From: Bacillus massilinigeriensis
GTDB lineage: Bacteria > Bacillota > Bacilli > Bacillales > Cytobacillaceae
Direction: 5' to 3'
Length of the DNA stretch: 64,000 nucleotides
Assembly (NCBI RefSeq): GCF_900111815.1
Contig: NZ_LT630004.1
Coordinates: forward strand, 140,373-204,372
The notes beneath the pieces were generated by a model that was not told the DNA's origin, searched no databases, and saw only the letters and a list, made by a program, of their open reading frames with translations. This document shows positions 24,740 through 32,142 of the stretch, in pieces (within the stretch, counting starts at the first letter, position 1; the number at the start of each line of letters is the position of its first letter). Both the position numbers and the translations under genes were made by a program.

Positions 24740-24901
24740 CTATTTCTCTTCTTCTTCCACTCTGTTTTTGAAGGCTTCCTGAACGACGAGAAATTCTTCG
24801 TCTTCCTGGGCTTCTGTTGTTCGCCCCTCAACGATGGTCCCTTTAGGGAATTCGCCTGGGTGGCCTTTCTTTTTATGGTTGAAACCTGTTCCGCGTGACA
24901 T
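24740..24901 (-). CDS. Small charged protein (53 aa), conserved-looking
   Basis: MSRGTGFNHKKKGHPGEFPKG at the N terminus, then an acidic C-terminal helix (EDEEFLVVQEAFKNRVEEEEK). The basic head with an acidic tail resembles small Bacillus proteins of unknown role. GAAAGGAGGTAGAGAC precedes ATG 24901, a very good start site; the longer frame to 24967 is not needed. Function unknown. Confidence 0.65.
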   Translation of the reverse strand: MSRGTGFNHKKKGHPGEFPKGTIVEGRTTEAQEDEEFLVVQEAFKNRVEEEEK

Positions 24902-25047
24902 GTCTCTACCTCCTTTCGCTCGAAAATAGCATTCCCGCAATCGATGTTGACTATCAATAAAATCCATGTCCGTCCTTCACCTTCATGAAAGTTGCCGCTG
25001 CACTTGCATAGTAATAAGTATGGAATTTGTGAAAGGAGAATGAGCAC

Positions 25048-25659
25048 ATGGGATTTCTGAACGAAAATCAGCGGAACATGGCAAGACAGCCTTTTTACGC
25101 TTCAATAGGGGATAGGGCGCCATTGTTCCAGGCTCAAGCCGTTTCAGGTGATAATATGCTGACAAGGCTGCAGCTCGCTGATTATAAAGGCAAGTGGCTG
25201 ATCCTGTTTTTTTATCCGAGCAATTTTACCTTTGTATGACCTACCGAGCTGGCGGCGGTCGCCGCTATTTATCCGCAAATTCGATCGGAAGGTGCCGAAG
25301 TGCTGGCCATCAGCACTGACAGCATTTATGCCCATGCAGTTTTTAAAAAAACATCCCCGTCACTCAGGAATGTTACCTACCCGCTTGTCAGCGACAGGAA
25401 CCAGGAAATCAGCCGTTCATACCGTGTGCTGGACGAAAAAGCCGGTGCATCTTTAAGGGCATCTGTTATCATTTGTCCTGATCAAATCATTCAAGCGAAA
25501 CTTATCTATCCTGGTGGCATCGGCAGGAACGTCCCAGAGCATCTCAGGCTGCTTCAAGCCTTTCGTTATGAAAAAGAAACAGGAAAAGGCATTCCAGCAA
25601 ACTGGGTTCCTGGCCAACCAGGAATAGAGAAAAAAGCCATAGACATTGGAAAAATATAA
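25048..25659 (+). CDS. Candidate selenocysteine peroxiredoxin (AhpC/TSA family, UGA at the peroxidatic position)
   Basis: ATG 25048 (AAAGGAG upstream) to TAA 25659 is one frame of 204 codons broken only by TGA at 25237-25239. That codon falls exactly on the peroxidatic Cys of the motif FTFVCPTEL: the sequence reads FYPSNFTFV-stop-PTELAAVAA. Downstream, AISTDSIYAHAVF, YPLVSDRNQEISRSYRVL, the catalytic Arg (about 137, GASLRAS) and GRNVPEHLRLLQAF are intact, with no other lesion. The resolving Cys of the usual CPANW motif is Ile (GIPANWVPG), so it would work as a 1-Sec enzyme or use Cys143 (IICPDQ). The family reduces H2O2 and organic peroxides. The alternative is a nonsense mutation of TGT/TGC in an otherwise intact gene. 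Confidence 0.85.
25250..25267 (+). promoter_or_regulatory. Candidate bacterial SECIS hairpin after the UGA codon
   Basis: U-G-GCGGC stem pairs with GCCGC-U-A around the tetraloop GGUC (25257-25260): five GC pairs plus G-U and U-A. The first loop G is 18 nt after the UGA, and the first two loop bases are both G. Bacterial SECIS elements are described as stem-loops with the loop about 16-37 nt from the UGA and a G among the first two loop bases. GC-rich Ala/Val codons could make such a hairpin by chance. Confidence 0.55.
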
Positions 25660-25665
25660 AAAACA

Positions 25666-25704
25666 AAAGCCCTATTTTCTTTCGGAAGGAAAAGGGCTTT
25701 TTTT
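25666..25704 (+). terminator. Terminator of the peroxiredoxin gene
   Basis: AAAAGCCCT ... AGGGCTTTT with an inner TTTTC/GAAGGA pairing, then a seven-T tract. Confidence 0.85.
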
Positions 25705-25764
25705 CTATTTTCGAGGAAAAAATAAGGGGAGCACGGACCTAAAAAGAAATGCTGTGAAGATTAG

Positions 25765-25896: not shown

Positions 25897-27249
25897 ATGG
25901 ATGAGGTCCTCATACTGAGCAGGATCCAATTTGCGGTAACAGTTGTCTACCATTTCTTGTTTGTACCGCTCACAATAGGGTTAGTTATTTTAGTCGCAGT
26001 GATGGAAACTAGATTCGCAAAAACCGGTGACCGGATGTACCGGAAAATGGCTGATTTTTGGGGTAAACTTTTTACCATAAACTTTGTATTAGGGGTCATC
26101 ACCGGTATCACGATGGAATTCCAGTTTGGAACCAACTGGTCAGAGTATTCGAAGTACATGGGTGATATTTTCGGCTCGCCGTTAGCAATTGAAGCGTTGC
26201 TTGCCTTCTTCCTGGAATCCACTTTCTTCGGCATCTGGCTGTTCGGAAAAGATAAGATATCTCCAAAACTCCGTGCGTTTTCCATGTGGATGGTTGCGCT
26301 AGGTACGAATATTTCCGCACTATGGATCATCACAGCGAACGGCTTCATGCAAAATCCTGTAGGCTATGTTATCAGAGACGGCAGGGCTGAACTTGAGAGC
26401 TTCACAGCATTGATTACGAACCCGTACGCATGGCATATGTTCTTCCATACAGTCATCTCCTGCTATATCGTAGGCTCGTTCTTTGTTATGGCAGTAAGTG
26501 CTTACCATTTGCTTCGTAAGAACGAAACACCATTCTTTAAAAAATCATTCAAATATGGCCTTATCATGGCTGTGTTTGCGGCAACTGCAACACCGTTTAT
26601 CGGTCACCAGTCCGGCGTGTTTGCAACAAAAATCCAGCCGGCTAAAGGCGCGGCGCTTGAAGCTGTCTGGGAAACACAAGAGAAAATGCCATTCCATATT
26701 GTTCAGTTCCCGGATGCTGAAAACGAAAAGAATTCCATCGAAGGGCTCAGCATTCCGCGGATTGGAAGCTTCCTTTACACAAACAGTTTTGATGGAAAAG
26801 TCACAGGCTTGAAAGATATACCTGCTGACGAACGCCCGAATGTTCCGCTTGTATTCTATTCGTTCAGAATCATGGTTGCACTGGGGATATTCTTCCTTTT
26901 GGCGTCATGGTTCGGCGTATACCTTTACCGGAAAAACAAGCTGGAAAACTCCAGAAGATATTTAAAAATGATGCTATACTCTGTACTGCTGCCATACGTT
27001 GCCATTAATGTAGGCTGGATTGTCGCAGAAGCAGGACGGCAGCCATGGGCAGTATACGGTCTGATGAAAACAGCAGAAGGCGTTTCGCCAATAAGTCTGT
27101 CACAAATTATCTTCTCGCTCGGTTCGCTCGTGCTGTTCTATACGATATTGCTTGTTGCGGATGTTTACTTGCTAATGAAATTTGCAAGAAAAGGTCCTGG
27201 TACAGAGCTTGCGACAGGCACAGAAGGAGGAGTCAAGCATGTCTCATGA
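25897..27249 (+). CDS. cydA: Cytochrome bd quinol oxidase subunit I
   Basis: 450 residues. Membrane subunit holding haems b558, b595 and d; oxidises menaquinol and reduces O2 under low oxygen. Conserved features: N-terminal SRIQFAVTVVYHFLFVPLTIG with the His ligand, WGKLFTINFVLGVITGITMEFQFGTNW, GWIVAEAGRQPWAVYG in the penultimate helix, and a shortened Q-loop as in Bacillus types. AATTAGGAGGAGAACAAG precedes the ATG. It overlaps cydB by 11 nt. Confidence 0.96.
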   Translation: MDEVLILSRIQFAVTVVYHFLFVPLTIGLVILVAVMETRFAKTGDRMYRKMADFWGKLFTINFVLGVITGITMEFQFGTNWSEYSKYMGDIFGSPLAIEALLAFFLESTFFGIWLFGKDKISPKLRAFSMWMVALGTNISALWIITANGFMQNPVGYVIRDGRAELESFTALITNPYAWHMFFHTVISCYIVGSFFVMAVSAYHLLRKNETPFFKKSFKYGLIMAVFAATATPFIGHQSGVFATKIQPAKGAALEAVWETQEKMPFHIVQFPDAENEKNSIEGLSIPRIGSFLYTNSFDGKVTGLKDIPADERPNVPLVFYSFRIMVALGIFFLLASWFGVYLYRKNKLENSRRYLKMMLYSVLLPYVAINVGWIVAEAGRQPWAVYGLMKTAEGVSPISLSQIIFSLGSLVLFYTILLVADVYLLMKFARKGPGTELATGTEGGVKHVS

Positions 27250-28267
27250 TACGCTTGCTATTATCTGGTTTGGCCTATGGGGCCTGATCTGGACAGTTTA
27301 TTTTATTCTTGACGGCTATTCGCTCGGAACAGGTATGCTGTTTCCGTTCATCGCAAAGAACCGGCAGGAACGGAATCAGATTCAAGAGGCGATTGGTCCT
27401 TTCTGGGGCGGCAACGAAGTCTGGCTCATCACTGCAGGCGGTGCAACCTTTGCAGCTTTCCCTGCCGTGTATGCGGATATGTTCTCGTTCCTTTATACTC
27501 CCTTGTTCCTTGTATTGATCGCACTATTCCTCAGGGCTGCTGGCCTTGAGTTCATGCACAAAGATGATAATCCGACGTGGCAGGCTGCCTGCAAGTGGGC
27601 TTTCACTATCGGTAGCTTCCTGATTTCACTGCTTTTCGGTGTGACTTTCGCGAACCTTTACCGTGGTCTCTTGATTGGGAAGGAAGGATATGAAGGCAAC
27701 CTGCTTAGCCTGTTGAACCCTTATGGCCTTCTTGGAGGACTGCTGTTTGTCGCATTGTTCCTGCTCTCAGGTTCCCTTTGGATTCAGCTGAAGACAGCAG
27801 GAGACACAGCAAAAAGAGCGGCGAAGCTATCGCGCCCAATTGCAGGAGTTGCTGCAGCACTGTTGGCGCTATTCTTTCTTGCGACAGCAAACCGTACGCC
27901 GCTTACAGATAATTATGCTGACTATCCGATACTTTGGATTGTCCCATTCATTGCACTATTAGCAATGCTTGCAGCAGTACGATTCGTTTTCCGCAAGAAA
28001 ATTGGATTAGCTTTTACCGCAGTCTGCATCACTATTTTTGCAAAAATGGCTTTCGGCTTCATCGGGATGTTCCCGAACATGCTCCCGTCGAAAATCGACA
28101 ATGCCTACAGTATCAACCTGTTTGACGCTGCTGGCAGCAAGCTCAACCTTACCATCATGTTCGCAGTTGCTGTCATTTTCGTACCGATTGTTCTCGGCTA
28201 CCAGCTTTGGAGCTATAGGATATTTAAGGATAAGATCCTGAAAGAAAGTGCCAAAGGATATCAATAA
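27239..28267 (+). CDS. cydB: Cytochrome bd quinol oxidase subunit II
   Basis: 342 residues, about eight or nine helices. Begins SHDTLAIIWFGLWGLIWTVYFILDGYSLGTGML and has GPFWGGNEVWLITAGGATFAAFPAVYA, the diagnostic CydB motifs. It pairs with CydA. ATG 27239 follows GGAGGAGTCAAGC inside the cydA end, so translation is coupled. No cydC or cydD follows here, unlike the B. subtilis cydABCD operon. A terminator follows at about 28280-28310. Confidence 0.95.
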   Translation: MSHDTLAIIWFGLWGLIWTVYFILDGYSLGTGMLFPFIAKNRQERNQIQEAIGPFWGGNEVWLITAGGATFAAFPAVYADMFSFLYTPLFLVLIALFLRAAGLEFMHKDDNPTWQAACKWAFTIGSFLISLLFGVTFANLYRGLLIGKEGYEGNLLSLLNPYGLLGGLLFVALFLLSGSLWIQLKTAGDTAKRAAKLSRPIAGVAAALLALFFLATANRTPLTDNYADYPILWIVPFIALLAMLAAVRFVFRKKIGLAFTAVCITIFAKMAFGFIGMFPNMLPSKIDNAYSINLFDAAGSKLNLTIMFAVAVIFVPIVLGYQLWSYRIFKDKILKESAKGYQ

Positions 28268-30946: not shown

Positions 30947-31285
30947 ATGAAAAACAAAGTGATTTTACTTGCATCAGATCAGCTGGGTAAAGGGGAAAAA
31001 GAACTGGGAGAAGGTGTCTTAGAAACGTTCTTTACGATTTTGAAGCAAAAGGAAGAGCTGCCGGCAGCTGTGTTTTGCATGAACAGGGGAGTGTTTACAT
31101 TATCAGAGCAATCATTCGTCTCTCTCCAGCTAAAGGAACTAGAAGAGAAGGGCGTGGATGTCTTTGCTTGTAAAACATGCGTCGATTATTATGAACTCGG
31201 AGGCCAGCTAGTCGCAGGAAAAATCAGCGGCATGGATCGATTTATTGATCTTGCATCAGAATATGAAGTGTTAACATTATCTTAA
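30947..31285 (+). CDS. yedF: YedF-type DsrE/F protein (selenium-metabolism-associated family)
   Basis: 112 residues of the DsrE fold: KVILLASDQLGKGEKELGEGVLETFFTILKQKEELPAAVFCMNRGVFTL, then LKELEEKGVDVFACKTCVDYYEL, with a conserved CxTCxDYY-type pair of Cys (Cys75 and Cys78). This matches the C-terminal domain of YedF-like proteins found mainly in genomes with selenium metabolism; the N-terminal TusA-like half is absent. It may bind or carry a reactive sulfur or selenium species. AACGAGGTGAAAAA precedes the ATG. It stands alone, with its own terminator. Confidence 0.8.
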   Translation: MKNKVILLASDQLGKGEKELGEGVLETFFTILKQKEELPAAVFCMNRGVFTLSEQSFVSLQLKELEEKGVDVFACKTCVDYYELGGQLVAGKISGMDRFIDLASEYEVLTLS

Positions 31286-31880: not shown

Positions 31881-32065
31881 ATATACCATCATTCGACAAA
31901 TTTCTCGCAAAAATCAATGTATTGATAGAAACGCTTACAAATTTATACATTTTAGCTAATAAAGCAACAAAAAAATATGAAGATTTCATGACAAAATACT
32001 ACAAGATGCTTACCGAGAACCAGTTACAATAAGATTGGGAAAAGGAAATAGCACTATTGCAGATA

Positions 32066-32142
32066 AGGGCAAACCTGTCGAAAGGCAGTGACGCAAAATC
32101 ACGGGTCTACGGGATTCTTCCTATGATAGCCGGATTGCCTGG
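32066..32142 (+). promoter_or_regulatory. Cyclic di-GMP-I (GEMM-I) riboswitch aptamer upstream of sinI
   Basis: The sequence has every GEMM-I landmark in order: GGGCAAACC, a GAAA tetraloop (CGAAAGG), GTGACGCAAAATCACGGG, GTCTAC, a short variable hairpin, and TATGATAGCCGGATTGCC closing the outer stem. It ends about 30 nt before the sinI start. TTCTTCC at 32115-32121, part of the variable hairpin, can pair with GGGAGAA at 32164-32170 (the sinI Shine-Dalgarno), which suggests control of translation. Direction of the switch is inferred, not shown. Confidence 0.93.

Follow-up and report, generated by a model that had tools for sequence, protein, structure and literature searches.

An example of a selenocysteine (Sec) peroxiredoxin is PrxU of Eubacterium acidaminophilum, reportedly described by Sohling in 2001. 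In their available portions, two further papers treat Sec-peroxiredoxins as already known (PMC9312934, PMC13188914), the second of them giving PxxxTxxU as their motif. A marine survey counted 253 Sec-peroxiredoxins (PMC2398784), and a survey from 2016 recorded Prx in 78 organisms (PMC5029168), again as far as their available portions go. For the Bacillales, a 2006 survey reported 3 selenoproteins of 3 families, which are not named in the part of it available to us (PMC1794560).

A Sec-peroxiredoxin of Bacillaceae is named in none of these five papers (PMC9312934, PMC13188914, PMC2398784, PMC5029168, PMC1794560) as far as their available portions extend. Neither is it in any title among the matches listed in our literature searches, with supplements and subscription papers outside their scope. 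Since the 2006 and 2016 surveys give totals for Bacillales or for Prx, some members may already have been counted in their supplements.

Here, we analysed a peroxiredoxin gene with an in-frame TGA in a window of 64,000 nucleotides, the whole stretch of Bacillus massilinigeriensis DNA under study. A sequence-only reading had proposed the gene as a candidate selenoprotein, and its statement that such peroxiredoxins are known in other bacteria agrees with the literature (PMC9312934, PMC13188914 and PMC2398784, in their available portions).

The peroxiredoxin gene and its in-frame TGA

The features of the locus, all of them on the forward strand, are the following:
25032..25038, +, AAAGGAG, a likely ribosome-binding site (by eye) that precedes the ATG at 25048
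25048..25659, +, peroxiredoxin gene of 203 residues with UGA as residue 64 (frame, Pfam and solved-structure matches)
25237..25239, +, in-frame TGA at the peroxidatic position, predicted selenocysteine codon (base reading and ortholog conservation)
25250..25267, +, predicted bacterial SECIS hairpin, with stem 25250-25256/25261-25267 and loop GGUC at 25257-25260
25666..25705, +, terminator-like hairpin followed by a T run (by eye)

The TGA at codon 64 is the single interruption of the frame 25048-25659, which ends at a normal stop. With the TGA translated as U, the surrounding sequence reads PSNFTFV-U-PTEL, and the Pfam domain PF00578 (AhpC-TSA) spans the site with 115.5 bits. Both the placement of the TGA at 25237 on the peroxidatic position and the otherwise intact frame with a normal end, as described in the sequence-only reading, were confirmed. 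PF10417 matched with 21.4 bits, barely above its cut-off of 21.1, and among solved 2-Cys peroxiredoxins the best match to the window protein reached 136.3 bits. Downstream of the TGA, dN/dS ranged from 0 to 0.14 in eight within-genus pairs; the peroxiredoxin frame beyond the TGA is under purifying selection.

Regarding the neighbourhood, a small divergent frame upstream (24740-24967, -) lies beside the gene in 33 of the 34 related loci searched, and cydA downstream (25897-28267, +) is present in 21 of the 34, the flanks examined being mostly 1.5 kb. These conserved neighbours fit vertical inheritance. Further along the window there is a c-di-GMP-I riboswitch aptamer (32058-32142, +; 74.5 bits).

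Selenocysteine genes and the TGA codon across relatives

The source genome searched (3.34 Mb in 27 contigs, 99.9% complete) contains the four Sec genes that the sequence-only reading had named for a check, all above curated cut-offs. The profile searches gave one match each for selB (355.9 bits), selA (556.9 bits) and selD (396 bits), and tRNA-Sec scored 64.6 bits against a cut-off of 47, with ARAGORN in agreement (tRNA-SeC, anticodon tca). A genome lacking selB or tRNA-Sec, given as one way for the proposal to fail, is thus not what was found.

Two genes outside the window also contain an in-frame TGA:
G000:C1:1481958-1482884, selD with in-frame TGA
G000:C13:32467-33219, formate dehydrogenase-like gene with in-frame TGA

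In selD the TGA falls at AG-U-GCK, and in the formate dehydrogenase-like gene of contig 13 within RI-U-HSSTVAGL, positions at which SelD and FdhA, in our reading, usually carry Sec. The best piece of the latter gene scored 193.9 bits, under the family cut-off; contig 1 holds the only formate dehydrogenase match above it, and this match is free of stops. Since selD and the formate dehydrogenase-like gene carry a TGA as well, the genome has at least three likely genes for selenoproteins, counting the window gene. Within the window, a DsrE-domain protein (30947-31285, +) corresponds to the C-terminal half of YedF, a protein of selenium metabolism, and lacks the N-terminal half; at 96.8 bits, its TIGR03527 match falls short of the cut-off (110).

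Across relatives, a base-by-base reading found TGA at the equivalent of codon 64 in 149 of 150 orthologous genes and TGT in the remaining one. In the GTDB family, the gene is present in 96 of the 193 genomes searched, so that the expectation of a Sec-peroxiredoxin being unusual in Bacillaceae was not borne out. The family search gave 99 strong matches, separated by a score gap from the ordinary copies (at least 197.8 bits vs. at most 129.6 bits), and all 99 read TGA. An order-wide draw of 397 genomes had a match in 54: 13 from the same family, one genome with an ordinary AhpC (G232), and 40 with orthologues, of which 39 carry TGA and one TGT. A class-wide draw of 398 genomes added ten further genes, all with TGA. 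Among 79 other, more distant homologues, the codon at the site was TGC in 55, TGT in 23 and TGA in one, L053.

L053, from Melghirimyces profundicolus, completes the 150 orthologous genes as the one added beyond the family, order-wide and class-wide sets. It retains the TGA and an intact hairpin, with its C-terminal part in another frame, which may be either real decay or an assembly error. The 150-gene set excludes repeats of the same gene (L048-L051, L218-L220, L269 and L275, the last dropped because its site and C terminus read like those of L053), as well as two distant TGA genes with 41-43% identity, L276 and L277. These two peroxiredoxins (from genomes G829 and G861) have TGA at the site followed by TCAGC-GGTC-GCTGA, and the outer stem pair is changed on both sides relative to the main group. 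As far as sequence comparison goes, they suggest a wider Sec-peroxiredoxin group. Three genomes hold two TGA-containing copies each: L137 and L171 (G095), L041 and L193 (G191), and L047 and L201 (G051). The source genome also holds an ordinary Cys-type AhpC-like gene with TGT (L204).

Alternatively, the gene could be decaying and the TGA a nonsense mutation that arose by chance, or the TGA could be an error of sequencing. It does break the frame under the standard code, and annotation pipelines apparently treated it so. Against this stand the same TGA in 149 of 150 orthologous genes from many genera and the remaining frame, intact and under purifying selection (dN/dS 0 to 0.14), which make this reading next to impossible. 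This is in line with the sequence-only reading, which had judged a random nonsense mutation unlikely; the pattern that it gave as speaking against Sec, TGT or TGC in relatives, with TGA and decay confined to this strain, is the opposite of what was found.

The gene also follows the Sec machinery. In the family, selA was found in 172 of 193 genomes, including all 96 carriers of the gene, and the gene is missing from all 21 genomes that lack selA (Fisher p 2.8e-7, a number that is only a guide because the genomes are related). Outside the family, all 39 TGA carriers tested have selA, so selA accompanies the TGA gene in 135 of 135 genomes tested. Another 76 family genomes have selA without the peroxiredoxin gene, and thus Sec users can do without it. 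In the order-wide set, selB was found in 19 of 20 TGA carriers tested; the exception, a 480-contig draft (G389), has selA and no selB match.

The sole TGT carrier, G369, is listed as 100% complete and gave no match for selA or selB. Its hairpin is broken, with loop AAUG, a change of Val71 to Met and a different predicted fold. A tree built from 74 of the 140 members collected by then and 22 Cys homologues (96 rows) separated the members from the Cys outgroup at 100/100 and nested the G369 protein among the TGA sequences. Because of this nested position, G369 is most simply read as having gone back from Sec to Cys, either after losing the machinery or along with its loss. This natural return, in a genome where neither selA nor selB was matched, would make the link among Sec, SECIS and machinery directly testable.

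The predicted hairpin downstream of the TGA

The predicted hairpin, at a spacing of 17 nt after the UGA, has a loop of 4 nt, a stem of 7 and a fold energy of -11.8 kcal/mol. According to the available part of PMC13188914, a bacterial SECIS (bSECIS) has a loop of 3-9 nt, a stem of 4-16 bp, a spacing of 16-37 nt, a G in the first two loop positions and an energy of -7.5 kcal/mol or below. The hairpin, whose loop begins with GG, lies within every one of these published limits.

Conservation at the nucleotide level is strong. In 98 of the 99 family genes codon 70 is GCG, and in 98 codon 71 is GTC; the normalised entropy of these two codons, 0.04, is the lowest among conserved codons, the other 55 having a mean of 0.83 and a minimum of 0.31 (99 genes). 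The loop is GGUC (138) or AGUU (11) and no other in the 149 TGA genes; accordingly, its first and last bases are G..C in 138 and A..U in 11, never mixed. The central stem pair is A-U in 75 of these genes, G-C in 60, G-U in 13 and U-A in one.

Homologues with Cys served as a control. Minimum-energy folding produced the five-pair hairpin for 122 of 149 TGA genes vs. 0 of 93 Cys homologues, and the mean energies were -11.9 and -5.8, respectively. At the position of the loop, GGTC or AGTT occurs in one of the 93 Cys homologues. The remaining 27 of the 149 TGA genes have a minimum-energy fold that departs from this exact hairpin.

A formal pair count used 74 of the 100 sequences then collected, near-copies left out. 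It found 98.6% of cells paired and a co-variation of 0.265 vs. 0.205 in shuffles, none of 500 being as high. Two-sided change was seen in one of the seven pairs only, no more than in shuffles, and after a slide of -3 columns 94.8% of cells still paired in this count, owing to the repetitive sequence.

Folding energy of single sequences was no better than that of shuffles (z of -0.68, -1.17 and 0.02, and -0.06 in a further run). Since this measure does not discriminate, we relied instead on conservation, codon entropy, co-variation and the Cys-homologue control. Searching Rfam over the peroxiredoxin UGA site gave no SECIS and chance matches only. The Rfam family SECIS_1 (RF00031) had 0 matches in the source genome and likewise 0 in 14 control genomes, which makes its empty result uninformative. 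As for the other two TGA genes, a loop predicted 18 nt downstream of the TGA in the formate dehydrogenase-like gene contains GGUCU, and the selD site folds otherwise than the peroxiredoxin hairpin.

The public entries bear on two other ways of reading the codon. None of the 17 database proteins retrieved for this peroxiredoxin shows the Sec. Five are shortened and start after the Sec codon, e.g., the 136-residue proteins of Mesobacillus zeae (P0012) and Bacillus sp. SG-1 (P0028), and therefore they miss the catalytic residue. The other twelve are metagenomic, full length, and have W at the site.

These twelve proteins could mean that the UGA is read through as another amino acid such as Trp, or by a suppressor, without selenium. 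The simplest account of the W is presumably gene calling with table 4, so we rejected them as non-Sec orthologues and kept them out of the 150-gene count. Moreover, distant homologues carry Cys and not Trp (78 of 79), selA is found alongside the TGA in 135 of 135 genomes, the sole carrier genome without a selA match, G369, has Cys, and the hairpin fits the bSECIS model. Readthrough without Sec is consequently extremely improbable.

The shortened entries, in turn, fit a scenario of regulated termination, in which Sec is inserted, low selenium stops translation at the UGA, and the 63-residue piece or a product starting after the UGA is what matters. However, the post-UGA starts fall within the hairpin region, would lose the catalytic residue and look like choices of the gene callers, and we regard this scenario as very improbable.

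The conservation of the UGA together with the hairpin in many species and the matches to Sec genes make it very likely that the peroxiredoxin UGA is read as selenocysteine, directed by the hairpin 17 nt downstream, which would function as a SECIS to which SelB binds. On genomic grounds, the proposal of a candidate selenoprotein is thus supported by the Sec genes present, the TGA in 149 of 150 orthologues and the conserved SECIS-like hairpin.

Predicted catalytic cycle and comparison with known systems

If the UGA encodes Sec, the product is a selenium enzyme that would destroy peroxides. SelB with Sec-tRNA would insert Sec at residue 64, and the selenol of Sec64 would reduce H2O2 or an organic hydroperoxide, becoming a selenenic acid.

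The position of the AhpC resolving Cys (xCPANW) is occupied in the 150 genes by V (124), T (9), I (8), A (4) or L (3). The remaining two are L198, with V in GVSANW, and the frameshifted L053, unreadable there. Hence none of the 149 readable genes encodes a C-terminal resolving Cys. At this position the window protein carries Ile, and its only Cys follows the Sec by 79 residues. Since no C-terminal resolving Cys exists, the selenenic acid would likely be reduced by an outside thiol, which may be thioredoxin, or bacillithiol with bacilliredoxin. A one-selenocysteine cycle of this kind, which is the likely chemistry of the window enzyme, would replace the two-cysteine cycle of AhpC.

Alternatively, a Cys about 52 residues before the Sec could resolve the selenenic acid in an atypical intramolecular Sec-Cys cycle. 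In the family, 74 of 99 members have Cys in that aligned column, and at least one Cys precedes the Sec in 77 of 99. Yet the window protein has Tyr in that column and no Cys upstream, its sole Cys lying after the Sec, and 17 of the 99 sequences contain no Cys at all. We rejected the N-terminal Cys as a general resolving residue, as it is not general and is absent from the window protein, and we consider the intramolecular cycle unlikely.

Returning to the one-selenocysteine cycle with an outside thiol, we tentatively propose a broader picture, to which we give somewhat less than an even chance. The gene would encode an AhpC-type peroxidase that works with one selenocysteine and is spread across a whole lineage, the spore-forming Bacillaceae and their relatives. 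This enzyme would have lost its C-terminal resolving Cys and would use bacillithiol or thioredoxin as the outside reductant, making it a bacterial counterpart of glutathione peroxidase. Together with Sec-SelD and formate dehydrogenase, it would help keep the Sec system, and it would revert to Cys when the system is lost. These findings point to a selenium-based peroxide defence in cultivable spore formers. In one Bacillaceae-type family, a selenoenzyme group has apparently gone unnoticed in roughly half of the genomes searched.

Compared with AhpC/Prx1-type 2-Cys peroxiredoxins, the window protein shares the fold family, the length, PF00578 and PF10417, and the GKI-like C-terminal residues, whereas it differs in the predicted Sec in place of the peroxidatic Cys and in the missing C-terminal resolving Cys. 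The AhpC model TIGR03137 gave it 142.7 bits, with the cut-off of 272 not reached. Its best NCBIfam match is PrxU (NF040737), from which it differs in scoring 158.9 bits, below the cut-off of 270. Another difference from PrxU is that carriers of the window-type gene are presumably aerobic-type spore formers, Bacillaceae and relatives. The hairpin agrees with the bSECIS model in the size of the loop and its G, the length of the stem, the spacing and the energy, all within the limits, and it differs in being nearly invariant in sequence across genera. As in the Sec-peroxiredoxins of the TxxU type (Prx), in the part of the literature available, the predicted Sec occupies the peroxidatic position in PxxxTxxU. 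Sec-peroxiredoxins are known, and what appears to be new here is a widespread form without the C-terminal resolving Cys.
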